This document shows, in pieces, positions 5,517 through 17,027 of a stretch of 64,000 nucleotides of DNA; the first letter of the stretch is position 1, and each line of letters opens with the position of its first letter. The stretch comes from Rhodobacter sp. SY28-1. GTDB lineage: Bacteria > Pseudomonadota > Alphaproteobacteria > Rhodobacterales > Rhodobacteraceae. The notes under the pieces are model-generated. The model was not told where the DNA came from. It did no database searches and saw only the letters and a list, made by a program, of their open reading frames with translations. The stretch lies in the NCBI RefSeq assembly GCF_005222785.1, contig NZ_STGH01000003.1, forward strand, positions 682,001 through 746,000, written 5' to 3'. The translations under genes and the position numbers were made by a program.

Positions 5517-6086
5517 CTAGACCCCGTCGCCCTGAACGCCATCAAGGATGCGGTAGACGCTGGCCCGACCGATGCCGAGGCGCTTGGCGATCTCTGTCCC
5601 GCCGATGCCCTGCCGGTGCAGCTTCACCACGTCATCGGCCTTGGCCCGTGCGGTGGGTGCCCTGCCCTTGTATTTGCCTTCGGCCTTCGCCTTGGCGATA
5701 CCTTCCCGCTGGCGCTCAAGCATGATCTCCCGTTCAAACTCCGCCACGCCACCGAGGATGGTCAGCATCAGCTTCCCCGTGGGGGTCGAGGTATCAATGC
5801 CCATAGCGAGTATACGGAGGGCCACCCCCTTTGCCTCTAGCTGCCCCAAGAGGTCCACCAGATGGGCCACAGAGCGGGCCAAGCGGTCCAGCTTAGTGAC
5901 TACCAGTGTGTCACCCTGACGGGCGAACAAGAGGGCCTCTGCCAGCTTCTCCCGCATCGCTACGTCCACGCTGGACACTTGCTCCACAAAGAACCTCTCG
6001 CACCCTGCCGTGGCAAGGTCGCGTTCCTGGGCTTCAAGCCCGGCCTTCTGGTCAAGGGTGGAGGTTCGGGCGTATCCGATCAGCAT
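5517..6086 (-). CDS. Serine recombinase, resolvase/invertase family
   Basis: This small serine recombinase has the N-terminal catalytic domain of Tn3-type resolvases and a C-terminal helix-turn-helix. The nucleophile is Ser9 in IGYARTST. The TKLDRLARS arginine motif, GVAEFEREIM and the hinge ERQREGIAKAKAEGKYKGR are intact, followed by the HTH region GIGGTEIAKRLGIGRASVYRIL. I chose ATG 6086 because AGGAG lies 9 bases upstream; a GTG at 6107 would place this site inside the gene. At 189 residues it has the normal length for the family. A candidate resolution or operator site lies about 75-110 bases upstream. It probably belongs to a transposon or plasmid-derived segment. Confidence 0.9.
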   Translation of the reverse strand: MLIGYARTSTLDQKAGLEAQERDLATAGCERFFVEQVSSVDVAMREKLAEALLFARQGDTLVVTKLDRLARSVAHLVDLLGQLEAKGVALRILAMGIDTSTPTGKLMLTILGGVAEFEREIMLERQREGIAKAKAEGKYKGRAPTARAKADDVVKLHRQGIGGTEIAKRLGIGRASVYRILDGVQGDGV

Positions 6087-6413
6087 GGCGAGCGTCTCCT
6101 GTCTCACTGGGTCTTAGACCTGATACACGACCTTGTCTCAAATCGTCAAGACCATTCGTATGGGACACCGTGAGGGATACCGTGAGGCGTCCCGCTAGAC
6201 CGTGCCCTGCGAGGCTATGGCTGGGCGCAGTGTGGGGTGTCCCGGATGATGGATTGAAGGGGGCCACCGGGGGGACTGCGCGGCTTCACCTGTTCAGGTC
6301 AGGCCCTCAGATTTTTTCGCTGATTTCTTGCCTATAAACGTAGTAGTGATCAGCCGAGCCGATTTTGCGCTGAAGTCGGCTCCCAGTTTCGCTGCCACCT
6401 CCGGAAGACCCTC
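6087..6413. other. Intergenic region with possible resolvase site
   Basis: No gene is supported here. It separates the divergent resolvase and trypsin-like protease genes. Within it, 6162-6193 holds two direct copies of ACCGTGAGG (6167-6175 and 6179-6187) bracketed by GGGAC and GTCCC, a possible resolvase subsite or operator. A T-rich tract, ATTTTTTCGC, near 6310 is the only other notable feature. Confidence 0.4.
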
Positions 6414-7211
6414 ATGAGTTATCTTCAAAGCTATGTTGTGCCAATCTGCAGCTACACCATTCACGAGGAAGAAGCCGATCTTAAGAAGCTGTTTGGAACG
6501 GCCTTCTATTTCGGCAACAATGGCTTCTTTCTCACGGCAAGGCACGTGGTCGACGAGGCACAGAGTTTCGCGGATGAGAAAGGCCACCTTGTCGGCTTGG
6601 TTGTCAAGGCGGACCAAGGCCGACAAGAGCAAAGCACTATTATCCCACTGAAAACGTATGAACATGCCCCTGCGCCCTATGACATAACAGCCGGAAAGTC
6701 GGGATATTTCCCCCCAACGCCATTGAAGGTCGCAAATGCGCAGGTAAGTGTTTGGACTGATGTCGCTGGCTTGGGCTACCCTGACAGCGCAGCAGTAATT
6801 GATCAGCAAACACTATGGATGAATGTAAGAGGCTACAAAGGTCACATCCAGCGGCCCACGGTCCCCAGAGATATCGTGATCGGCACTCATCCCAATGGGT
6901 TTGAGCTAAGCTTCCTTACTGGCCCAGGGTCGAGTGGAGGGCCGATATTTACTTTGGACGAAACGGTTATTGGGGTAATCGTAGCGTCGTTCAGATCACA
7001 GCAAACCGAAGATCAAATTGTTGAAATTCAGAAGGACGGGAGCACCTACAAGGAGCTTCGAGTTCGCGTAGAGGAGTTTGGCTTCGCTCACGACATTCGA
7101 GGTTTGCTGGATTGGCGCGCCGAAATCTTTGAAGGGCTTACCCTCAGCGAAGTATCAGCGCTACCGTTCGGTCAGCTCCCGTCAATACAAGCCGCTTCGA
7201 AGCGAAGGTAA
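6414..7211 (+). CDS. Trypsin-like serine protease (S1 fold)
   Basis: This 265-residue chymotrypsin-fold peptidase carries the full catalytic triad: His44 in LTARHVV, Asp90 in APYDIT and Ser174 in GPGSSGGPIF. No signal peptide or membrane segment is visible, so it should act in the cytoplasm, and there is no PDZ domain, unlike HtrA/DegP. Stand-alone cytoplasmic trypsin-like domains are frequent in bacterial conflict systems, where a sensor activates them, but no partner gene lies beside it. GGAAG lies about 7 bases before the ATG. Base composition is AT-richer than the core genome, fitting acquisition with the surrounding element. Confidence 0.8.
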   Translation: MSYLQSYVVPICSYTIHEEEADLKKLFGTAFYFGNNGFFLTARHVVDEAQSFADEKGHLVGLVVKADQGRQEQSTIIPLKTYEHAPAPYDITAGKSGYFPPTPLKVANAQVSVWTDVAGLGYPDSAAVIDQQTLWMNVRGYKGHIQRPTVPRDIVIGTHPNGFELSFLTGPGSSGGPIFTLDETVIGVIVASFRSQQTEDQIVEIQKDGSTYKELRVRVEEFGFAHDIRGLLDWRAEIFEGLTLSEVSALPFGQLPSIQAASKRR

Positions 7212-7465
7212 AAAAGGGTTGTCCGACGCGGGCAAGCTATTCGGGCCAAGGCGGAGCTTGCCTTGCTCGTTGTGATGCAGGAGTATAGGCACACAAATTC
7301 ACCACGTCAGGCACACACGGCCGACCATCGGGAAGGACAGTGGCTATCTCAAGCCCTTGATATTGAACGAAATACCGAGAGTGTTGCGCTGTTAAGTTAG
7401 ACCCCTACACGCCTACCGCCGGAGCCAAAAAATCCAATAAATTTTGGATACTTAGATGGGCGACC

Positions 7466-8042
7466 CTAGGGTCCAGACTCATTGATAGCAAAAGCCACAA
7501 CATGACCGTTTCGGCGAGTGCGACGGCGGACAGTAAGGTCTTAGCACATCTGTCGTTGCGGGTTGCGACTTTGCGCCGGTCCTTCAGCCGGCCGAACATG
7601 ATCTCGATCCGGTTGCGGCGGCGGTAGCGGCGCTTGTCGTAGCGGACAGCTTTGCCACGCGACGTCCAACCAGGGATGCAGGCTCGTATCCCCTTGTCTT
7701 TCAACGCTTCTCGGAACCAGCCGTCCCTCGCCGGTTCGCTCGAACCGGTGGCGCTCACCGCCTCGATAACCCCCGGTCCGCGATCCCCCATAACGCGTCT
7801 TGGGCGGGCCATACTCACGGTTCGGGCTGGCCCTCGAACCGATGGCAGGCCCACCCCTCACCATCGCACCACCTCAATCCATTGCGATTGATGAAGATTA
7901 TGCCAATCATCACCCGCCGGTCATCGACATGCGGCTTGCCAGGATTTATCGGGAAAAACGGCTTAAACCGTGCCAAATGCTCCCCGGCAAGCCAGAAAAG
8001 GCTGCTCGTCACCACCCCCGCAACTTCGGGTGCTTGAATCAC
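7466..8042 (-). pseudogene. IS5-family transposase, broken
   Basis: Two separated pieces of one DDE transposase are visible on the minus strand. The N-terminal piece (from 8042) contains LARFKPFFPINPGKPHVDDRR and FINRNGLRWCD; the C-terminal piece contains WFREALKDKGIRACIPG, the YDKRRYRRRNRIEIMFGRLKD signature and LSAVALAETVMLWL. They lie in different frames. The centre, including the first two catalytic aspartates, is replaced by a short garbled stretch around 7720-7870. Both an internal deletion and frameshifts are therefore present. The C-terminal frame reads past the inverted repeat to 7405. Confidence 0.8.
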
Positions 8043-8169: not shown

Positions 8170-8880
8170 TCAATTGCGCGACAAGGCCTCTGCCTCTTCG
8201 GCCAGATCCAGCGCCGAGCCTGCGCCAAGATCGTCCAACACCTGATCGATTACTGCGGCAGCGGTATCAGACGCCGGAATGTAGACTTCAGTTTGTCCTG
8301 CGGCGATTGCAGCTACAACCGTCCAGCTTCGGTCCGGCGTTTGGCATACGACTGCACGCTCGGATCGGTCATCGGACAGATCCAGATCCAGAAGCCGACA
8401 CAGGCCTTGATCGGTCTGGTAGCTTCCCAGAACGCGTGCCACTCCGACCTCGGGAAGCATGGTTTCCGCGCCGGTACCAAGGGTCGCAAGCGCAGCCGCT
8501 GCAAGGGCCGCGGGGTCGGCCGTGGCTGAAGCGGGCGCAACTGAACGCCCGACCACAAAACTGCCCACTCCGACGGCAAGCAGAAGCGAAGCCGCCAGCG
8601 CAAGTGTCGGTGCCGTTACCCGTCGCGGGGGAAACCTGACCAGAGTGGCACCCGGACGCGTATCACCAATCGGCGCATTGCGGATCGATGCCTCCAGCCA
8701 ATCCGGCGTAGCCCCCGGCGCGAAGGCATCCTGCAGTGCGGCCCGGCTGTCCGCAAAGACGGCGAACCGGGCTGCCAGCGCCGGATCGGCATTGATTGAT
8801 CGCCGCAGGGCATCGGCGTCGGGGCCGTGAAGTTGGTTATCGGCAAGTGCCATAAGCATGTCGTCACTGGGGTCTTGCAT
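8170..8880 (-). CDS. Membrane anti-sigma factor
   Basis: The 236-residue protein starts 4 bases after the ECF sigma stop codon, and I chose ATG 8880 (MQDPSDDML) for this reason. Residues 1-80 form a helical cytoplasmic domain of the anti-sigma type (LMALADNQLHGPDADALRRSI) without the zinc-binding His/Cys set of ZAS proteins. A transmembrane helix follows (ALAASLLLAVGVGSFVVG), then an alanine-rich periplasmic domain with two cysteines. It should hold the sigma factor at the inner membrane until a periplasmic signal releases it. The neighbouring exported subtilase or peptide could take part in that signal (inference). The gene is cotranscribed with the sigma gene. Confidence 0.8.
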   Translation of the reverse strand: MQDPSDDMLMALADNQLHGPDADALRRSINADPALAARFAVFADSRAALQDAFAPGATPDWLEASIRNAPIGDTRPGATLVRFPPRRVTAPTLALAASLLLAVGVGSFVVGRSVAPASATADPAALAAAALATLGTGAETMLPEVGVARVLGSYQTDQGLCRLLDLDLSDDRSERAVVCQTPDRSWTVVAAIAAGQTEVYIPASDTAAAVIDQVLDDLGAGSALDLAEEAEALSRN

Positions 8881-8884
8881 CGGG

Positions 8885-9418
8885 TCAGGTCCGCATCTTG
8901 GAGGTCCGGGGACGTAGTTCGGCGACATTCGAGTTCAGCGCCTGGTGCAATGCCTGGCGCGCGCGCGAAAGCCGACTCATGACGGTGCCTTGCGGCAAGC
9001 CAAGCAGGTCCGCTGCCTCGCGGTAGCCAAGGCCAGCCACGCACACTGCAGAGAGCACGTCCTGCTGGTCCTGCGGCAAGGCTGACATTGCACGCTCCAC
9101 GGCCGACAGATGCAGACGGGCCTCGACCGTGCGGCGGCCATCTTCGCCAATCAGCTCGATCCCGCCAGACTCCAGGTCATCCAGTGCAACGGTTGCGCGC
9201 CGCGTACGCAAGGTGTCGATCCAGCTGTTGCGCAAGATGCGGAACAACCAGACATCCAGTCTTGTACCCGGCTGGAACGAAGCAATCCGGCCCAAAGCCC
9301 TTTCGCAGCACTGCTGCACAAGGTCGTCCGCCGCATCGGCCGAGCGCGTCAGACTCCTTGCAAATGCACGCAGTCTGGGCAGCAGGCGGATCATCTCGTC
9401 CCTGATGTCGTCTTGCAT
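8885..9418 (-). CDS. ECF-family RNA polymerase sigma factor
   Basis: This 177-residue group 4 sigma factor has region 2 at about residues 10-75 (DDLVQQCCERALGRIASFQPGTRLDVWLFRILRN as separate blocks) and a region 4 helix-turn-helix near 125-165 (YREAADLLGLPQGTVMSRLSRAR). ATG 9418 is the best start, because it matches the family N-terminus (MQDDIRDEMI) and gives a short leader from the predicted promoter at 9459-9483. It faces the subtilase gene divergently, and both directions carry GGAATA...CGTT. It therefore probably autoregulates and drives the subtilase, peptide and kinase genes. The anti-sigma gene follows directly. Confidence 0.9.
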   Translation of the reverse strand: MQDDIRDEMIRLLPRLRAFARSLTRSADAADDLVQQCCERALGRIASFQPGTRLDVWLFRILRNSWIDTLRTRRATVALDDLESGGIELIGEDGRRTVEARLHLSAVERAMSALPQDQQDVLSAVCVAGLGYREAADLLGLPQGTVMSRLSRARQALHQALNSNVAELRPRTSKMRT

Positions 9419-9458
9419 CCGTGCCCCGGTGGTTCCGTATCCGAACTTGCCAATGAAG

Positions 9459-9483
9459 AACGGCTGACGGCTGGAATTATTCC
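9459..9483 (-). promoter_or_regulatory. Predicted ECF promoter of the sigma/anti-sigma operon
   Basis: On the minus strand GGAATA (9483-9478) is followed after 15 bases by CGTT (9462-9459). The same two blocks occur 16 bases apart before the divergent subtilase gene and before the small peptide gene. That places the predicted transcription start about 30 bases before ATG 9418. Autoregulation is usual for ECF factors; here it is an inference from the shared motif. Confidence 0.6.
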
Positions 9484-9545
9484 GTAGGACGCAAAGAGTT
9501 TCTCTGCCCAAATCGGCGTCGCGCAACTTTTTCCACAGAGATTGC

Positions 9546-9571
9546 GGAATAGATCGCCTCTCAATGCCGTT
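9546..9571 (+). promoter_or_regulatory. Predicted ECF promoter of the subtilase gene
   Basis: GGAATA (9546-9551), a 16-base spacer and CGTT (9568-9571) lie 60 bases upstream of ATG 9631. The element layout is identical to that before the peptide gene at 10959 and nearly identical to the sigma gene's own promoter, with GGAATA as the -35-like and CGTT as the -10-like block. Confidence 0.65.
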
Positions 9572-9630
9572 TACGTAGCGGATTGCTGTCTGTCGCGCAC
9601 AGGCACGGACATGAAGAAGGAGTTTTCAGG

Positions 9631-10965
9631 ATGCCAACGGATCAGCCCGAAGACCGCGGCCGCCGCGCCTTGCTCAAGCGGTTGGGGCTGGCTAGCGCAA
9701 TGATCTATGTTGCGCCGTCACTTACGCCGGTTTCGACCGCGCGCGCCAGCACCAGCGGTGGCGACAGCGGACCAAGCGGTGGGTCCTCCGGAGGCGGGTC
9801 CGGCGCCTCTCGGCCCGCGCCGGCACGGCGAGAGCCGCCAAGGCGCACTGTGCGGGCAGTTCCGCCGCCGCCACCCGAAGTGGTGGCGCTGGTTCCTTCC
9901 GGACTGACACGAGAAGCAGCGCTCGCAGCAGGCTATGTCGTCCTGTCAGAACGGTCCGGCGTGGTCGGGACCGACCTCTTGCGCATAGCGCTGCCTGCAG
10001 GGAGGACGCCGGCAGAGGCCATCGCCGAACTGGCGCAACTCTTGCCGGGGACAACGGCAGATCTGAACCATCTTTACACACCGGATGACTTCTTGTGCCG
10101 CGACGGTCTGTGCGACGCGCATGCAACGGTTGGCTGGAGCGGTTGGCCCAGTGCACTTGCCCCACGGTTGGGCATGATTGACACCGGGGTCAACGTCGAT
10201 CACGACGCGCTCTCCGGTCAGAAGCTGACCGTTCTGCAAGCCAACCTGGCCGAGCGGAACGCAGCCGGACGTCAGCATGGCACAGCCATCGCGGCCATGC
10301 TGATCGGCCGACTGGACAGCAGGGTTCCCGGACTTTTGCCCTATGCCGAACTGATCGCCGTCGAGGCGTTTCACCAGGGTGGCACTGGCGAAGCGGCAGA
10401 TGCCTTTGCACTTGCCGATGCACTACAGCAGCTGATCGACGCCAGGGTGCAGGTGGTGAACCTGTCGTTTTCAGGGCCTGAGAACGCGGTGTTCGGGCGG
10501 GTTGTGGCAGAGGCGCTTGCGCAGGACATCGGCCTTGTGGCTGCCGTGGGAAATGACGGCCCGGGGGCGCCACCCGCCTATCCGGCTGCCTGGCCGGGCG
10601 TCCTTGCGGTTACAGCCGTCGATTCCGACCTGAAGACCTATCGACAAGCGGCGCGGGGCACTCATGTGGCATTTGCCGCGCCGGGGGTGAACCTTTGGAC
10701 CGCCGCTTCCATCAGCGGTGGGCGTCTCAGGTCGGGAACATCCTATGCCGCGCCCTTCGTGACGGCCGCCCTCGCGGTTGAGCAGCTGCGGGTTCCGGCG
10801 AAGCCAATGGCGGAAGCTGTAGCCGAACTGTCCCGCTGCGCCCTGGACCTGGGCGAGCCCGGGCGCGACCCGATCTTCGGGTACGGCATCGTATCGTCGC
10901 CAAATCAATGCCTTGCGGACTCTGCCGACGGAATGGTGGAAGAATATCGACTGAGCGGGGAATAA
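9631..10965 (+). CDS. Tat-type secreted subtilisin-like protease (S8 family)
   Basis: ATG 9631 is chosen because AAGGAG lies at 9617-9622. The 444-residue protein begins with a twin-arginine signal: RRALLKRLG, a hydrophobic stretch, and a likely cleavage after ARA (residue 39). A Ser/Gly then Pro/Arg-rich linker runs to about residue 85, a small propeptide-like region follows, and the S8 domain starts near 175. The catalytic triad is Asp184 (GMIDTGV), His216 (RQHGTAIAA) and Ser371 (SGTSYAAP), with oxyanion Asn308. Cysteine pairs may form disulfides after export. Its signal and Ser/Gly segment closely resemble the next gene's product, suggesting that protease as processing enzyme or partner. 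It has its own ECF-type promoter. Confidence 0.88.
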   Translation: MPTDQPEDRGRRALLKRLGLASAMIYVAPSLTPVSTARASTSGGDSGPSGGSSGGGSGASRPAPARREPPRRTVRAVPPPPPEVVALVPSGLTREAALAAGYVVLSERSGVVGTDLLRIALPAGRTPAEAIAELAQLLPGTTADLNHLYTPDDFLCRDGLCDAHATVGWSGWPSALAPRLGMIDTGVNVDHDALSGQKLTVLQANLAERNAAGRQHGTAIAAMLIGRLDSRVPGLLPYAELIAVEAFHQGGTGEAADAFALADALQQLIDARVQVVNLSFSGPENAVFGRVVAEALAQDIGLVAAVGNDGPGAPPAYPAAWPGVLAVTAVDSDLKTYRQAARGTHVAFAAPGVNLWTAASISGGRLRSGTSYAAPFVTAALAVEQLRVPAKPMAEAVAELSRCALDLGEPGRDPIFGYGIVSSPNQCLADSADGMVEEYRLSGE

Positions 10966-10984
10966 AGCCGCATCCCGGATCGTT
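10959..10984 (+). promoter_or_regulatory. Predicted ECF promoter of the peptide-kinase pair
   Basis: GGAATA (10959-10964), exactly 16 bases, then CGTT (10981-10984). The first block overlaps the subtilase stop codon TAA (10963-10965), so the promoter is built into the gene end. It would give the small peptide and kinase genes a promoter of their own under the same sigma factor as the subtilase. Confidence 0.65.
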
Positions 10985-11022
10985 GTCCTTCTACCTGAAA
11001 TGAACCGCAGCATCGAAAGGAC

Positions 11023-11355
11023 ATGATGATGAAGAAGAATCCCAACCCCTCGAACCCGATGACCCGCCGTCGTCTGCTTGCGCGTGTCGGCCTTGCAGCA
11101 GGTGCAGTCTACGTCGCCCCTGCAATGATCGGGCTGGATGCTGCGCGCGCCAGCGGCAGCTCGGGGTCATCCGGCGGAAACTCGGGTCCCTCGAGCAGCG
11201 GCAATTCCAGCCCCTCGAGTAGCGCCAACTCGGGTCCGTCGCGTGGCGGCAACTCGGGTCCTTCCCGCGGCGGCAATTCTCGCCCCTCGCGCAGCGGACA
11301 GCGCAGCGGTGATGAAATTCCGCTGTGGTTGCGGCGACTGCTGCAAGGCAGCTGA
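11023..11355 (+). CDS. Small Tat-signal Ser/Gly/Pro octapeptide-repeat protein
   Basis: This small protein (110 residues from the first ATG) has three ATGs in a row at 11023, 11026 and 11029. AAAGG at 11016-11020 suits the second or third best. It has a clear twin-arginine signal (MTRRRLLARVG, a hydrophobic stretch, likely cleavage after ARA), then five eight-residue units of the form GNSGPSSS or GNSGPSRG, and a different C-terminus, DEIPLWLRRLLQGS. The signal is almost a copy of the subtilase's. A serine-rich exported peptide directly before a kinase/PqqD fusion fits a modified-peptide precursor or a phosphorylated surface protein (inference). I recognise no family. The stop codon lies one base before the kinase ATG. 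Confidence 0.75.
   Translation: MMMKKNPNPSNPMTRRRLLARVGLAAGAVYVAPAMIGLDAARASGSSGSSGGNSGPSSSGNSSPSSSANSGPSRGGNSGPSRGGNSRPSRSGQRSGDEIPLWLRRLLQGS
11176..11295 (+). repeat. Five in-frame 24-bp tandem repeats
   Basis: Five 24-bp units (11176, 11200, 11224, 11248, 11272) encode the octapeptide consensus [GA]-N-S-[GSR]-P-S-[SR]-[SG]. The first two units end in Ser-Ser and the last three carry Arg. Third-position differences show selection on the peptide rather than very recent duplication. Repeat number probably varies among strains. Confidence 0.85.
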
Positions 11356-11356
11356 C

Positions 11357-12628
11357 ATGGCCGGGACCGATTCCAATGGCATTTCGGGCACGGAGGGCGA
11401 GACGCTCTCCGTGCCAGACCTTTGCGAGATGCATTTCGCGGGTGTCCCATCGCCCGTGGTCCTGCCCGATGATCCGTCTGTGTTGCATGCATTCGACCAA
11501 TGTATTGTCGGTTGGCCATACCGCCGTGTGCCCCTTTCCGCCGAACAGGGTGGGTCCACTCCTCCACTCTGTGTGATCGAGCCTCGGGGACAAGGGCGGT
11601 TCCGGGCCCATTCCCGTTATCTTGACGAGCCGCTCGACAATCTCTTTCCGGCGACAGCCATTTGCGTTGTGTTGGCGGACCTGTCGCAGGCCTACTCGGA
11701 CCTGACCGGCGACCATGTGTTCGGTCTGCATTGTGGTGGGGTCTTGATCGGCGGGCGCGGCGTCATCCTGGCTGGAGAGCGGCGGGCTGGCAAATCCACT
11801 CTGGTAGCCCGGCTTTCCAGCGAAGCGGGGACCGAGCTGCTGGGCGATGATGTTCTCCCGGTCGTGGCTGACGGCAGTGTCGTCGGCCTTGGCCTGGCTC
11901 CCCGCCTGCGGCTTCCGCTTCCGGATACAGCGACACCTCACTTCACGACCTATGTGAAGCAGTGGCTGGGACCCTTTGACGACCGCTACGGATACCTGTT
12001 GACGCCGGCGCTTGCACCCCATGGTCGGCGCGTGAAGGCCGAGGCCCTCATCCTGCTCGACCGTCGACCTGCTGCTCCGGCCGCGCTGCACGCGCTGCCC
12101 GCCGATGAGCTTCTGCGCACTGTGGTGGAGCGCAGCATCGCCGGGCCTGTCGGACCCGAAGCAATGTTCGACGCTGCAAGGGAGCTTTCGTCCCGATTGG
12201 TGGGACTGCGCCTGGTCTACTCCGACCTGGATGAGGCCGCTGCCCTTCTGCTGGGCGCATTTCCGGCAGATGGAAGAAACGTCGCGGATGCTGTGGCTGT
12301 AGCCCAACCGATTCGGTCAGTTCCATCCGCGACCCATTCGGACCCGGGCCTTGCTCCATCTGTCCGCTGCCGCCGTTCCGTGGGAACAGCGACACGCCGC
12401 ATAGGCGATGCGGCCTTCCTGTGGCGAGTAGGCGACGGCATGCTGTGGCACCTCAACCCGACCGCCCAAGCCATCTGGTCCCTTCTGGCGCGACCTACCA
12501 CGGCACGGACAATCGCTCGCCACCTCAGCAGTCTGTTCCCGAACGAACCGTCGCAGAGTTTGCTGGAAGACACGATGACGCTGCTTGGCCGACTGGCTGA
12601 AGAAGGCTTTGTCGACGTTCGCACTTGA
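11357..12628 (+). CDS. HPr-kinase-like domain fused to PqqD-like domain
   Basis: This 423-residue protein starts one base after the peptide stop. Residues about 115-300 match the HPr serine kinase C-terminal fold: LHCGGVLIGGRGVILAG leads into a Walker A motif GERRAGKST (140-148), followed by the acidic pair in LLGDDVLPV (164-165). Residues about 341-423 match PqqD, the peptide-binding chaperone fold of RiPP pathways (DAAFLWRVGDGMLWHLNPTAQAIW in segments, then RLAEEGFVDV). HprK-like kinases phosphorylate lasso and other peptide precursors in known clusters, so this one may phosphorylate serines of the preceding peptide, with the PqqD part binding its leader (inference). It is cytoplasmic, with no signal or membrane segment. 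No cyclase or radical-SAM gene is nearby. Confidence 0.8.
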   Translation: MAGTDSNGISGTEGETLSVPDLCEMHFAGVPSPVVLPDDPSVLHAFDQCIVGWPYRRVPLSAEQGGSTPPLCVIEPRGQGRFRAHSRYLDEPLDNLFPATAICVVLADLSQAYSDLTGDHVFGLHCGGVLIGGRGVILAGERRAGKSTLVARLSSEAGTELLGDDVLPVVADGSVVGLGLAPRLRLPLPDTATPHFTTYVKQWLGPFDDRYGYLLTPALAPHGRRVKAEALILLDRRPAAPAALHALPADELLRTVVERSIAGPVGPEAMFDAARELSSRLVGLRLVYSDLDEAAALLLGAFPADGRNVADAVAVAQPIRSVPSATHSDPGLAPSVRCRRSVGTATRRIGDAAFLWRVGDGMLWHLNPTAQAIWSLLARPTTARTIARHLSSLFPNEPSQSLLEDTMTLLGRLAEEGFVDVRT

Positions 12629-13064: not shown

Positions 13065-15452
13065 TTATGCTGCCGCAGACGTCCGGTCCTGCGTCTGGGC
13101 AGGCTCCCACAGCAGCCCTGTCACATAGCGGGCATGGACCCGGCCCTCCTTCAGCGCAAAGAGATGCAGCCAGCCGTTGTCGAACAGCTGCCGCACGCCC
13201 TGATGCTTGCGCAGGACCTCCGTCATCGCCTGCACCGGCGCCTCGATCATCACCGACAGCCGCAGCGCCTCATGCGCCGGACGCTCGCCGTCATGCACCG
13301 ACTGGATCGGCAGGCCAGGGCGCAGCAAGCCGCCGTTGCCCTCGACCACCCCGATCCCGCCGACAACATTGTGGATCAGCTTGTTGCCGCCGCCGAACAG
13401 CTGCGGCGCGACGGTCGAGCCGTAGTATTGCAGGCTGATCCAGCTGGCGACGACGACCGGCGCGGTCAGGATCAGCTCCAGCGTGGCAAAACCCTTGTCC
13501 GCCTGCCAGTCATAGCTGTGCAGGAACGCCCGGCCCTGCAAATCGCGGCCCGAGGTCGCCGCGCGCGGCGCCGCAATGAAGGCCCCGCAGCCCGCCAGCC
13601 CCCATTCGGGCCGCACCTCGGCCCAGTCCGCGGCCCGCTTCGCCAGATCCTCTCCGCCGGCCCCCGGCAGCCGCAGGGACCGTTCCGCCCGCGACAGCTT
13701 TCCCGCCCTTGCCAGCCAGGCTTCGGCCTGCCGCAGCTCCGCCGCATGATCCGGCGCGGGCGTGTCGCGGAAAAGCGTCACCTTGTCCGTCACCGTGTCG
13801 TGCAGCCCTGCCACGAACAACGTGTCGTCGCGCAAGGACAGACCCTGCGCCGGAAGGCCCGCCCTTGTCTCGGGGTCGTTCAGCAGCGCCGCCAGCAGCC
13901 GCGCCGACACCTCCCCGGTCTGGCCGCAGCAGGCCCCGCAATGATAGGCGCTTTCATGCGGGTTGTTCGTCACCTGTGCCCCGTGGCCTATCAGCAGGAC
14001 CAGTCGCGCGTGGCCTTCGGTCAGGCTCATCGCCCGAAGGACCGCCGCCGCCGTCCTGGCCTTGGCCTCGGGCGACAGCCCGCCCTCGATCCGTGGCATC
14101 GGGCCGCGGGTAAGCCCTTCGGCCCCCAGCCCCAGCGCGTCCTTCACCAGCTTTGCGCCATAGCCCGGCCCCGCCGCCTCGACGAAGGCGAAAGAGGATA
14201 CCGCCGCCTGCCGGAACCGGCCCCAGGCGCGCTTGGCCCGGGCCTTGATCCGGGTTTCCGTCTCATGTGCCTCGTCGCCGTGGCTGGTCGAGATCAGCGC
14301 GGCGTTCAACAGCGCAGGCAGGTGCTTCTGCACCTCGTCCGTGCCTTCCGGCCGGTGCGCCACGGGCAGGCCGAAGAAGCCTGCGAAACCGATGGTCTCG
14401 ATCCCTTGGTCCTGCGCCTCCAGCGCCCGGCGCAGGACTTCCGAACGCACGTCGATGCAGAAGGCCGCCTGCAGGCTGGCCCGCCCCGCCCGGACCTGCG
14501 GGCCGGAAAGAAGCCCCGCTAGCCTGCGCTGATGTGCCCGCTCGGCCGCATCCTGCAGCACCGCATCCAGCGCCTGATCGGCCGAGGCCATGAGCGGCGC
14601 GCCATGCGCCTGAACCACTGCCTGCCAGTCATCCGCGACGCCCGGGCACTGCGCCAGCAGCGCCTCCTCCCAGACCAGCCGGATCGCCAGAAGATCGGTC
14701 AGCGTGGCATCGGTCCCGCCTTGCAGCTCTGCCTGCCACAACAGCCAGCGCGCATGCATCGGCCAGCCACCCAGGTCGACAAGCAGCCGGTGAAGAGCCG
14801 TTTCAGCCGCCTCCACCGTCAGCCCCAGCCGCTCGGCCGCGCGCAGGACGGCACGGTCGGCGGTGTCGGGCGCCTCCGACACATGGGCGCAGAAGCCGGT
14901 CAGCCCGGCGATCTCGGGCGTCAGATCATGCGTCGCCCATTCCCGCCAGGCGGCGTATGCCCCGTGCCCCGGCCGCGGTGTCCACAAGGCCTGCCCCCGG
15001 TCGAAGAACCCCGCCGCCCAAAGCCCGAAGCTGCGCGCGATGACGGCAGGCCAGTCGGTGCCGGTGGCGTTCGCCGCCAGTTCCGCCACCGTAGGCAGCG
15101 CCTGCACCGCTGGCGCCGGGCTGTGCATCCGCGCCTTGAGCAGGACCAGATCGCGCGGCTTCACCGGCGAGGGCGAGGCGATCAGGGCGGCAGCCAGATC
15201 ATCATCCGTGATCTCTTCCGCAATCACTTTCGCGGCGAGATCAGCGCGCGGCTGGGTCAACCTCACCCCCGCCACCCGGGCCAGCCGGGCCGAGGCCTGG
15301 GCCAGATCCTCGCCGGTCTGACCCAGAAAGGGGTTCACCGCGACAGTCGCGTCCAGTGGGAAAGCCGGCGGGATCGCACGTGCCGCCGCCTCGGCAGCAG
15401 TCAGGAGTTGCGAGGCAAGCGAAGGGGCGATCTGCGTGTGCTTGAGAAACAT
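13065..15452 (-). CDS. dabA: Inorganic carbon transporter subunit DabA (DUF2309)
   Basis: DabA is the carbonic-anhydrase-like subunit of the DAB bicarbonate/CO2-accumulation pump, acting at the cytoplasmic face of the membrane. The zinc and active-site residues are visible: Cys336 and Asp338 in FCIDVRSE, and His494 and Cys509 in LIGHGAQ...YHCGACCG, counted from the upstream ATG 15464. Their spacing (2 and 15) equals that of characterised DabA proteins. The length, 795 residues, is normal. I prefer ATG 15452 because GGAGG lies 5 bases before it. The gene follows dabB by 30 bases and forms an operon with it, facing a LysR gene. Confidence 0.92.
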
Positions 15453-15482
15453 CTTGGCCTCCATCAGGTCAGGATTTTGGGG

Positions 15483-17027
15483 TCAGTTCTTCGCGGCCGT
15501 CCGGAACCCGCCGATCATGCGGTCCAGAAGCGCGTTGAGGTACAACCCGTTCGCCAGATGCACCCGCAGCCCGGCGGTCGAGGGGTGGTGCGCCCACAAG
15601 GGGAACAGCGCCTGGGCAAAGGCCACCAGCGCGAAGGACAGGACCGCCAGCACGATCAGCGCCCATTCCAGCGGACCCGCTACCGGGACGGCGGGCAGGA
15701 AGGCACCCCAGACATGCTGGGCCACGACCTGGAAGCTGAAATAGGCCAGCGCCGCCGCCAGCGAGGCCGCAACGGTGCGCCGGGTCAGGGCTCCGGGCGC
15801 GGCATCGGCCAGGCCTTGCGCGATCAGGTAGGACACCCCGAAGATCAGTATGGTGCCAAGCGCCAGCGCCTGCGGCGACTTCTCGCCCATAAGCGCCGTG
15901 AAGGCTGCGGCGACCGCCACATACAAGGCCAGCGCCAGCGCAAAGGACCGCGCCACCGCCCACAGCCCGGGCACCGCCACGGGACCAGGCTTCCGGACCG
16001 CGTTCACCGCCTTGACCGCCCCGCCCGAGGACAGGAACGCGTGCGCCTTGTACAGCGAATGGGCAACGATGTGCAGCAAGGCCAGCGCCCAGAGACCCAG
16101 CCCGCATTGCAGCAGCATGAAGCCCATCTGCGCCACCGTGGACCAGGCCAGCGCCGTCTTCACCGCGCTTTGCGTCAGCATCACCAGCGCGCCGAACAGC
16201 GCGGTGAACCCGCCCAGCACCACCAGCGCCGCCATCGCGCCTGCACTGTGCTGCACCAGCCCCGCCAGCGTGATCAGCAGGACCCCGCCAGAGTTGATGA
16301 TCCCCGCGTGCAGCAGTGCCGAGACCGGCGTCGGGGCCTCCATCACCTCGGTCAGCCAGCCGTGCAACGGGAAGGCCGCCGTCTTCAGGACCGCAGCAAG
16401 GACGATCAGCGCGACCGCCCCCTGCCCCAGCGCACCCAAGCCCGGGACCTGGGTCAGGGCGGCGATCTCGACCGTGCCAAAGGCGGTCCACAAGAGGACT
16501 GACCCCGCGATCAGCGCCAGATCGCCCGCGCCCCAGACCCGGATGAACTTGGCCGCCGCCCGCTGCGCTTCGGGTCGGTCGGGGTAGAACAGCAGAAGCT
16601 GCCGCAGGACCAGACCCGTCGCGACGAAACCCGCCACCAGCACCGGCAGGCTTGCCGCCTGGATCAGCAGCAGGACCGAGGCCACCGCAATCAGCGTCAA
16701 ACAGTGAAAGCGCCCCTCCCGGTCCTCGCCGTCCAGATAGCGGCGGGCGTAGCGGACGACGACCCAGCCCACAAAGGCCACCAGCACCGCCATCGTCACG
16801 CTGACTGCATCCAGCCGCGCAACCGGCAAGCCAGCCACGTCCAGGGTCTGCGCGCCGGTCAACCAAAGCTGACCCACCCCCGCCAGTGCCAGCCCAAGGG
16901 CGGCATGCGCCGCTACTTCCGCCAGCCGCGGCAATCGTCCCGGGCGGCGCCCCGGGGTAAACGCCAATGGCAGGGCCGCAGCCAGCAAGAGCAGAGGGGA
17001 GAGGAAGGTCAGCGGCAGGTGCATCAT
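15483..17027 (-). CDS. dabB: Membrane subunit DabB (NuoL-like, proton-conducting)
   Basis: This 514-residue polytopic protein is built almost wholly of hydrophobic helices and belongs to the NuoL/MrpA antiporter-like family. Motifs typical of the family's proton channel are present: LLHAGIINSGGVLLI, the preceding TEVMEAPTPVSAL, and a LAWSTVAQMGFMLLQ block with the conserved helix after it. Paired with DabA, it would couple the cation gradient to CO2 hydration and bicarbonate accumulation. It is shorter than respiratory NuoL (about 600 residues) because the long C-terminal lateral helix is missing, as usual for DabB. It is the first gene of the operon, 99 bases from the divergent LysR gene. 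Confidence 0.9.
   Translation of the reverse strand: MMHLPLTFLSPLLLLAAALPLAFTPGRRPGRLPRLAEVAAHAALGLALAGVGQLWLTGAQTLDVAGLPVARLDAVSVTMAVLVAFVGWVVVRYARRYLDGEDREGRFHCLTLIAVASVLLLIQAASLPVLVAGFVATGLVLRQLLLFYPDRPEAQRAAAKFIRVWGAGDLALIAGSVLLWTAFGTVEIAALTQVPGLGALGQGAVALIVLAAVLKTAAFPLHGWLTEVMEAPTPVSALLHAGIINSGGVLLITLAGLVQHSAGAMAALVVLGGFTALFGALVMLTQSAVKTALAWSTVAQMGFMLLQCGLGLWALALLHIVAHSLYKAHAFLSSGGAVKAVNAVRKPGPVAVPGLWAVARSFALALALYVAVAAAFTALMGEKSPQALALGTILIFGVSYLIAQGLADAAPGALTRRTVAASLAAALAYFSFQVVAQHVWGAFLPAVPVAGPLEWALIVLAVLSFALVAFAQALFPLWAHHPSTAGLRVHLANGLYLNALLDRMIGGFRTAAKN

Follow-up and report, generated by a model that had tools for sequence, protein, structure and literature searches.

The window analysed here is a 64,000-nucleotide stretch of Rhodobacter sp. 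SY28-1 (contig NZ_STGH01000003.1, positions 682,001 to 746,000; genome size 4.28 Mb), in which the locus at 8170-12628 joins a putative peptide kinase to candidate exported proteins. The initial annotation had placed five genes there, and open reading frames (ORFs) and profile matches bore out all five: anti-sigma-like and extracytoplasmic function (ECF) sigma factor genes on the minus strand and, divergently on the plus strand, a subtilase, a 110-aa Ser/Gly/Pro protein and a fusion of an HprK-like kinase with a PqqD domain. We consider it probable that the locus stands for leader-guided serine phosphorylation, followed by export of polyanionic proteins through the general twin-arginine translocation (Tat) pathway. 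The PqqD domain is read here as an RRE, the recognition element of ribosomally synthesized and post-translationally modified peptides (RiPPs). The features are as follows.

8170..8880, minus strand: anti-sigma-like gene (ORF 8170-8928; likely start about 8880, just past the ECF stop; one hydrophobic segment by eye)
8885..9418, minus strand: ECF sigma factor gene (ORF 8885-9526; likely start about 9418; Sigma70_r2 and r4_2 above cut-off)
9459..9483, minus strand: ECF promoter-like element GGAATA-N15-CGTT upstream of the ECF gene
9546..9571, plus strand: ECF promoter-like element GGAATA-N16-CGTT upstream of the subtilase
9631..10965, plus strand: S8 subtilase (likely start ATG 9631; RR-x13-YxxP leader, then a Ser/Gly stretch after the signal)
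9643..9765, plus strand: subtilase leader, a Tat-type signal with YVAP
10959..10984, plus strand: ECF promoter-like element GGAATA-N16-CGTT upstream of the precursor-kinase pair, overlapping the subtilase gene end
11023..11355, plus strand: candidate precursor, 110 aa (core of Ser/Gly/Pro repeats behind a Tat-type signal with YVAP; by eye, the C-terminus is short and amphipathic)
11047..11169, plus strand: precursor leader, RR-x13-YxxP within the signal
11357..12628, plus strand: HprK-like kinase with C-terminal PqqD/RRE domain, 423 aa (H125, G145-K146-S147, D164-D165; RRE N367, D405)

Tat signals were assigned by motif, and the starts of the subtilase, ECF and anti-sigma genes are readings of the sequence; the kinase most likely begins at ATG 11357 rather than 11138, since the extended ORF would run into the small gene in another frame. 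The protein profile scan covered nine window proteins. The subtilase scored 82.7 bits on Peptidase_S8 (cut-off 21.8), its D, H, S triad being recognised by eye, and the PqqD domain scored 39.2 bits on PF05402 (cut-off 23.4). The anti-sigma-like protein matched NF052375 weakly (33.2 bits, below the cut-off of 100); its homologues adjoin ECF genes in related subtilase loci. No lasso cyclase or B2 protease was found among the nine proteins, which agrees with the initial annotation in setting the locus apart from standard lasso clusters. The window gene order is also annotated in Paracoccus sp. Arc7-R13, P. marcusii and Shinella sp. WSC3-e, with a hypothetical gene in the position of the anti-sigma gene, and further plasmid stretches keep it with one gene split or unannotated. 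As the order recurs in Paracoccus and Shinella, the five-gene arrangement is more than chance. In P. marcusii CP157 and KGP (L273, L283) the small-protein gene appears interrupted or shifted.

The predicted structure of the fusion (mean predicted local distance difference test score, pLDDT, 87.2) matched PEPCK and HprK folds. Residues H125, G145, K146, S147, D164 and D165 were invariant in 101/101 kinase rows (some genomes twice), and the set of H, GKS and DD residues is also listed for the peptide kinase BsfK (PMC10368454; this paper and PMC13381572, PMC9266682, PMC12452194, PMC9259500 and PMC3712460 are cited from excerpts, except where their main text is named). One split RRE (L088) was compared with PDB sequences; the best match was 9x8z_B (E 7.6e-4), followed by TbiB1 of a lasso system. 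The entry 9x8z is LppB with its YxxP leader, where D70 forms a hydrogen bond with the leader Tyr and the bend at Pro is held in place by N33 (PMC13381572). D70 aligned with D405 of the fusion (D in 90/95 rows) and N33 with N367 (N or D in 93/95). The fusion scored weakly on HprK_rel_A, and its results for the HPr-rel-A system (TIGR04352/TIGR04353) were 27.1 of 200 bits and 13 of 35 bits, with four relatives at 36-43 of 200 bits. Neither the kinase nor the small protein had a match in PHROGs or PADLOC; in PADLOC, the subtilase matched three generic subtilase or IetS models. The same genome also holds a second, divergent kinase-PqqD gene paired with a Tat-type Ser/Thr protein (L003 8408-10020, C3 about 974-976 kb), which has no ECF or subtilase gene beside it and lies between ptsP-like and acyl-CoA synthetase-like genes (names by eye). 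A recent duplication of the two kinase copies was ruled out, as they fall into distant clades of the kinase tree (94 rows, nine rows from genomes already present having been dropped beforehand).

The leaders of the candidate clients carried a motif that the initial annotation had not recorded. YxxP followed the twin arginine with a spacing of 13 residues in 129/131 leader matches, and of 14 and 16 in the other two (some genomes twice); in an alignment of 36 rows from DNA references, R, R, Y and P were the only invariant columns. Among the Tat-profile matches of the host genome, YxxP was found in 0/20 (10 above the cut-off; 16 clean reads). YxxPx followed by a hydrophobic residue is the motif recognised by the discrete leader-binding domains of lasso and LPP systems (PMC13381572; PMC10368454). 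Features of Tat substrates were likewise present: RR in 131/131 leader matches, a hydrophobic stretch and A-x-A recognised by eye, and tatC in the genome. Judged by motif, fold and homology, the signal peptide would double as the leader of the RRE.

A family search found the kinase in 25/295 genomes, at 27 places, and a leader protein adjoins it at 24 of these; the three places without one (L027, L028, L030) are the three weakest matches. At L030 a weak partial kinase match has a PqqD-like frame nearby, together with a gene that by eye resembles lasso B2, and the place may be a lasso-type cluster. Among 57 loci from named records, nearly all Rhodobacterales by title (Aliiroseovarius, Ruegeria, Yoonia, Loktanella, Shimia, Tabrizicola and others) and some of them genomes already in the family set, 56 had the leader protein and 55 had it directly upstream on the kinase strand, while L142 and L155 are cut by contig ends. 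The conserved small neighbour proposed in the initial annotation is thus borne out. These 57 loci under-represent the window type because they were fetched with the alignment of another branch of the family. With the leader profile, a strong match (E <=7.1e-13) was obtained in 22/22 kinase-positive and 0/20 kinase-negative family genomes, a comparison that was not blind, many positive leaders having been in the profile. The negative set consisted of the first 20 listed, three of which gave weak matches (E 2.6e-5 to 5.5e-4); on the positive side, three of the 25 (G085, G123, G230) were left out for partial or interrupted matches, G123 having an adjacent leader and G230 and G085 none in the fetched stretches.

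Across the class, the host genome left out, 32 genomes contained both leader and kinase, 2 the leader only (G407, G666), 3 the kinase only (G397, G478, G603) and 347 neither, at cut-offs that we chose (leader E 1e-6, kinase E 1e-20; Fisher p 7e-41, relatedness uncorrected). The leader profile, built from alphaproteobacterial leaders alone, was also scanned by itself against 398 phylum genomes and gave 8 matches; four were genomes of one family outside the class, each with the leader gene immediately beside a full-length kinase-PqqD fusion, and the leader gene of a further class genome (G965) likewise lay immediately beside one. In 20 strong class loci fetched wide, a leader gene was nearby in 16; kinase and PqqD genes were separate neighbours in 12 and fused in 4, and 4 had no PqqD part in the fetched stretch. 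An adjacent leader was missing from 10/29 loci in one fetch and from 4/20 in the wide fetch, and upstream searches of leaderless kinase loci found no precursor. The four wide loci without a nearby leader have leader genes elsewhere in their genomes, and several split-kinase genomes have leader genes unlinked to the kinase; the leader rather than the position probably defines a client. Split HprK-like/PqqD genes at L067, L069, L071, L074, L079 and L099 follow RegA-like, partly RegB-like, regulators (by eye), and in some of these genomes the leader genes lie tens of kb away.

Behind the signal, the small proteins of Rhodobacterales were rich in serine (34% of residues in 104 distinct sequences). 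Serine autocorrelation was best at a lag of 3 in 70/103 sequences and of 6 in 21/103, while Ser codons three residues apart were identical in 358/1209 pairs (30%), where their own codon usage predicts about 33%. With codons scrambled in this way, DNA slippage was ruled out as the origin of the repeats, and the period is kept at the protein level, because codon agreement is no higher than codon usage predicts. In 38 cores from other Alphaproteobacteria, the position 19 residues from the leader Tyr was Ser in 39% and Thr in 10%, and a PSxC or TPC site was counted by hand in 21/38. Precursors of the Arg-rich type (window, L031-L034, L223-L228) have a short C-terminal segment that is hydrophobic or amphipathic (in the window, LWLRRLLQGS), and many small proteins of Rhodobacterales (L101-L157) end in a short Cys-pair element, e.g., CSGPTDDDAGC.

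These cores also bear on a possible but doubtful alternative, that the RRE-kinase modifies one fixed serine near the leader, perhaps multiply, as in LPP and paeninodin-like systems, and that the serine repeats are mere flexible linker. LppK adds multiple phosphates to Ser3 only (PMC13381572), and the distance from the leader Tyr to the modified site, counted from the numbering of the papers, is 18 for LPP Ser3 and 19 for Bsf Ser3; the PSxC or TPC sites outside Rhodobacterales lie close to the signal, often 19 residues from Tyr. Against a single site, the serine content of the Rhodobacterales cores and their three-residue period with scrambled codons suggest that many sites matter; the exchange with poly-Asp described below concerns the whole tract, not one site.

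The subtilase offers this exchange. Its leader-bearing orthologues (window, G135, G026, the P. marcusii group and Shinella) all contain serine after the signal, mostly as a Ser/Gly stretch, and no Asp run. In 13/13 leaderless orthologues from ECF loci (G175, G283, G132, G002 and nine plasmid records), an Asp run follows the signal instead, in one case (L282) mixed with Ser, and 12/13 lack a twin arginine by eye. Counting the four records of the P. marcusii group as one lineage, five leader-bearing lineages stand against 13, a perfect split (p about 1.2e-4, relatedness uncorrected). The plasmid records were among 14 fetched after being picked by hand for species spread from the 40 listed of 128 that matched the subtilase. 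Since G175, G283 and G132 possess the kinase, it is the leader that is missing there; within the 7 kb fetched around the nine plasmid subtilases (chromosomes not covered), the kinase profile found no kinase. The kinase and a Ser stretch may therefore stand in for encoded acidity, and Tat would replace Sec in the leader-bearing subtilases because such a client must presumably wait in the cytoplasm. One of the kinase-less subtilase/ECF loci, L282 of Aminobacter sp. MSH1, adjoins genes annotated as polyphosphate polymerase and phytase-like esterase.

The initial annotation had suggested that the subtilase could process or activate the repeat protein, and had named as a check the co-occurrence of S8 proteases with the fusion and the Tat-type Ser-rich protein. 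The latter two do go together, but the protease is seldom near the kinase (3/22 family loci, 0/57 others) and is unlinked to it in G026. A role as conserved processor was rejected, as the subtilase is scarce beside the kinase and itself bears the leader in the window, L034 and G026; it looks like a client. The same observations make it unlikely that the pair produces a secreted signalling or antimicrobial RiPP whose core is processed outside by the subtilase or another protease. The leader motif and the enzymes are indeed of the RiPP type, the subtilase lies upstream in the same direction in the window, and phospeptin, a phosphorylated linear RiPP, inhibits a protease (PMC9259500); still, the incomplete gene tables of the Paracoccus and Shinella stretches list neither an exporter nor a leader peptidase.

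Clients may also include sensory proteins. In 26 of the 57 named-record loci, a second leader protein has a PepSY-like end, followed in 25 by a response regulator and a histidine kinase; the remaining one, L115, ends at a contig edge. In L045, the one example scanned, the PepSY match reached 16.1 of 24 bits, and the regulator and kinase were nearest to the PmrA and PhoQ profiles, all three below cut-off. The ECF factor of the window type occupies the place of this two-component pair.

ECF control, as proposed in the initial annotation, gained support: GGAATA-N15/16-CGTT precedes all three transcription units here and in relatives. Such control is not general, as the named-record loci with a two-component pair show. 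The window elements were the only exact matches of a looser GGAAT-N16/17-CGTT pattern in the 64 kb (expected 1.1). By count alone these 3 matches are not significant (3 were reached in 10/100 shuffles), so that the promoter reading rests on position and conservation. The host genome gave 28 matches of the looser pattern and 14 of the reversed control; many copies elsewhere are therefore chance. Upstream of precursors, the element was exact in L034, L032 (twice) and L035, with one mismatch in L033 and two in L031. A subtilase orthologue was present in the genomes of L031-L035, and none was found at E 1e-20 in those of L036 and L037 (G165, G040). Upstream of the ECF gene, it also occurred in L034, L188, L271-L274 and L283; in Paracoccus sp. 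Arc7-R13, P. marcusii and Shinella sp. WSC3-e it stands (N14 to N16) before all three units, and the kinase-less subtilase loci L281 and L282 carry such elements as well.

Taken together, leader-guided phosphorylation would proceed as follows. The small Ser-rich protein and the subtilase each start with a twin-arginine signal that carries YxxP 13 residues past RR. The PqqD domain of the fusion would bind YxxP and so present the Ser-rich stretch that follows the signal, on which the HprK-like domain would phosphorylate serines using ATP; the bound RRE would probably shield the signal meanwhile. After release, the phosphorylated protein would leave by the general Tat pathway, probably the exporter of this system, and signal peptidase I would cut at A-x-A. 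The product would be an exported polyanionic tract, free in the small protein and attached to a catalytic or sensory domain in subtilase and PepSY-like clients, with the ECF factor controlling all three transcription units in the window locus. The physiological role is probably, as a guess, the handling of cations or cationic peptides in the envelope. The initial annotation had proposed that the kinase binds the repeat protein and phosphorylates its serines before export; the conserved pair and the YxxP motif favour this. The sequences show the gene content, the conservation of leader and catalytic residues, the co-occurrence, the promoter-like elements and the exchange of Ser for Asp; binding, phosphorylation, Tat export and shielding are inferred from them.

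Several results weigh against this interpretation. The small protein scored below the cut-off of the Tat profile (TIGR01409, 10.5 bits; cut-off 16.7), and the TIGR01409 search of the host genome did not return these leaders. In the predicted fold of a read-through chain (an in-frame neighbouring precursor plus kinase), a strand at residues 31-36 directly follows YAAP (pLDDT about 72), in agreement with the extended leader of LppB, its docking on the RRE being putative. Tat substrates are usually folded, whereas residues 40-57 and 62-119 of this chain had a pLDDT under 50, so that the core is modelled with low confidence. At E 1e-5 the kinase profile matched 110/385 class genomes, the majority of which have no leader and match through part of a single domain; even at E 1e-20, three kinase genomes have no leader and two leader genomes no strong kinase, in co-occurrence counts that are not corrected for relatedness. 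The promoter-like element is missing in L036 and L037, and in L035 the kinase has a leaderless subtilase next to it. Finally, the remote subtilase matches G001 and G184 have neither leader nor Asp run; they were dropped from the exchange count for want of an ECF gene beside them, and p rises to about 0.0014 if they are kept (own arithmetic, relatedness uncorrected).

It is very improbable that the HprK-like domain is inactive or a regulatory ATP sensor, with the PqqD domain acting only as a Tat-signal chaperone in NapD-type proofreading, for H, K, S and both D are identical in 101/101 rows and the cores have stayed rich in serine. That the fusion is an ordinary relative of HPr kinases which acts on the phosphotransferase system, its neighbours being unrelated, is hardly tenable: the PEPCK/HprK fold would suit this, but TIGR00679 gave 8.9 bits (cut-off 240), and across genomes the kinase occurs together with the leader protein. 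The gene set is real, conserved and outside every family tested, and leader-guided phosphorylation before Tat export is strongly suggested.

As to the surroundings, a serine resolvase, a trypsin-like peptidase and an IS5-type transposase fragment adjoin the locus (window 5517-7854), hinting at past mobility. A gene for a DabA-type inorganic carbon transporter and, on the strand of that gene, a likely partner membrane gene lie at window 13065-17027.

The broader claim, which we hold about equally likely to stand or fall, is that of an undescribed and broadly distributed mode of making exported phosphoproteins, in which a Tat signal would be a RiPP leader, an RRE-kinase would proofread it, Ser tracts on small proteins, subtilases and PepSY-like sensor partners would be phosphorylated ahead of export, and kinase plus poly-Ser would replace poly-Asp. 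Many Alphaproteobacteria appear to carry the system, in which the export tag would also be a docking handle for the kinase. If true, RRE-guided modification would extend from short peptides to whole exported proteins, and Tat export would gain a proofreading partner that is also a modifying enzyme. The natural exchange between poly-Asp and a Ser stretch with a kinase would then allow tests of what exported polyanionic tracts do. Being short and sufficiently specific, the leader profile can indicate unlinked clients in genomes.

Among the matches listed in the open-access literature (subscription papers and preprints mostly uncovered), none described a Tat-signal precursor with an HprK/RRE pair, and the main text of an RRE survey (PMC12710340) mentions no kinase, HprK or Tat. 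The nearest relative is the LPP system of Bacillota (PMC13381572), which likewise combines an HprK-like kinase, an RRE and a YxxP leader and yields a linear product; the words Tat and Alphaproteobacteria are absent from the main text of that paper. The window fusion shares with it the HprK-like kinase with catalytic residues and the RRE residues that hold the leader Tyr and Pro (D70 and N33 of LppB). It differs in L409, which takes the place of LppB F74, the Phe that divides the pockets. The LPP leader consensus YxxPxVLxHQxIxFETxxS was not found, YxxPx-hydrophobic alone being common to both, and no SpI-type peptidase, nucleoside triphosphate (NTP) transferase or MsbA-like transporter was present among the nine window proteins or annotated in the Paracoccus and Shinella plasmid stretches (gene tables incomplete). 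In contrast to LPP, the present system has a Tat-type signal as leader, often has kinase and RRE in one protein, has Ser repeats as its Rhodobacterales cores and counts a whole enzyme among the candidate clients.

Paeninodin-type lasso kinases (PadeK, ThcoK, PsmK, BsfK) also act on a precursor peptide with a YxxPxL leader, BsfK being aided by a PqqD-like RRE (PMC10368454, PMC9266682), whereas the plasmid stretches, like the nine window proteins, have no annotated lasso cyclase or B2 protease in their incomplete gene tables. Phospeptin (PMC9259500) is a poly-phosphorylated linear RiPP too, but made by a maturase with a mutated dehydration site, and neither an HprK/RRE pair nor a Tat leader appears in its excerpt. 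Bufferins and other MNIO RiPPs (PMC12452194) share precursors in which export signals replace ordinary leaders, and their authors suggest that a partner masks the signal until modification; they differ in Sec signals, an MNIO enzyme and Cys cores, and the main text is without Tat, PqqD or kinase. Tat proofreading chaperones such as NapD (PMC3712460) are similar in that a cytoplasmic partner binds the Tat signal before export. While the signal is helical on NapD, YxxP would be bound by the RRE of the fusion as an extended segment, and the protein that binds the signal would also be the one that modifies the cargo.

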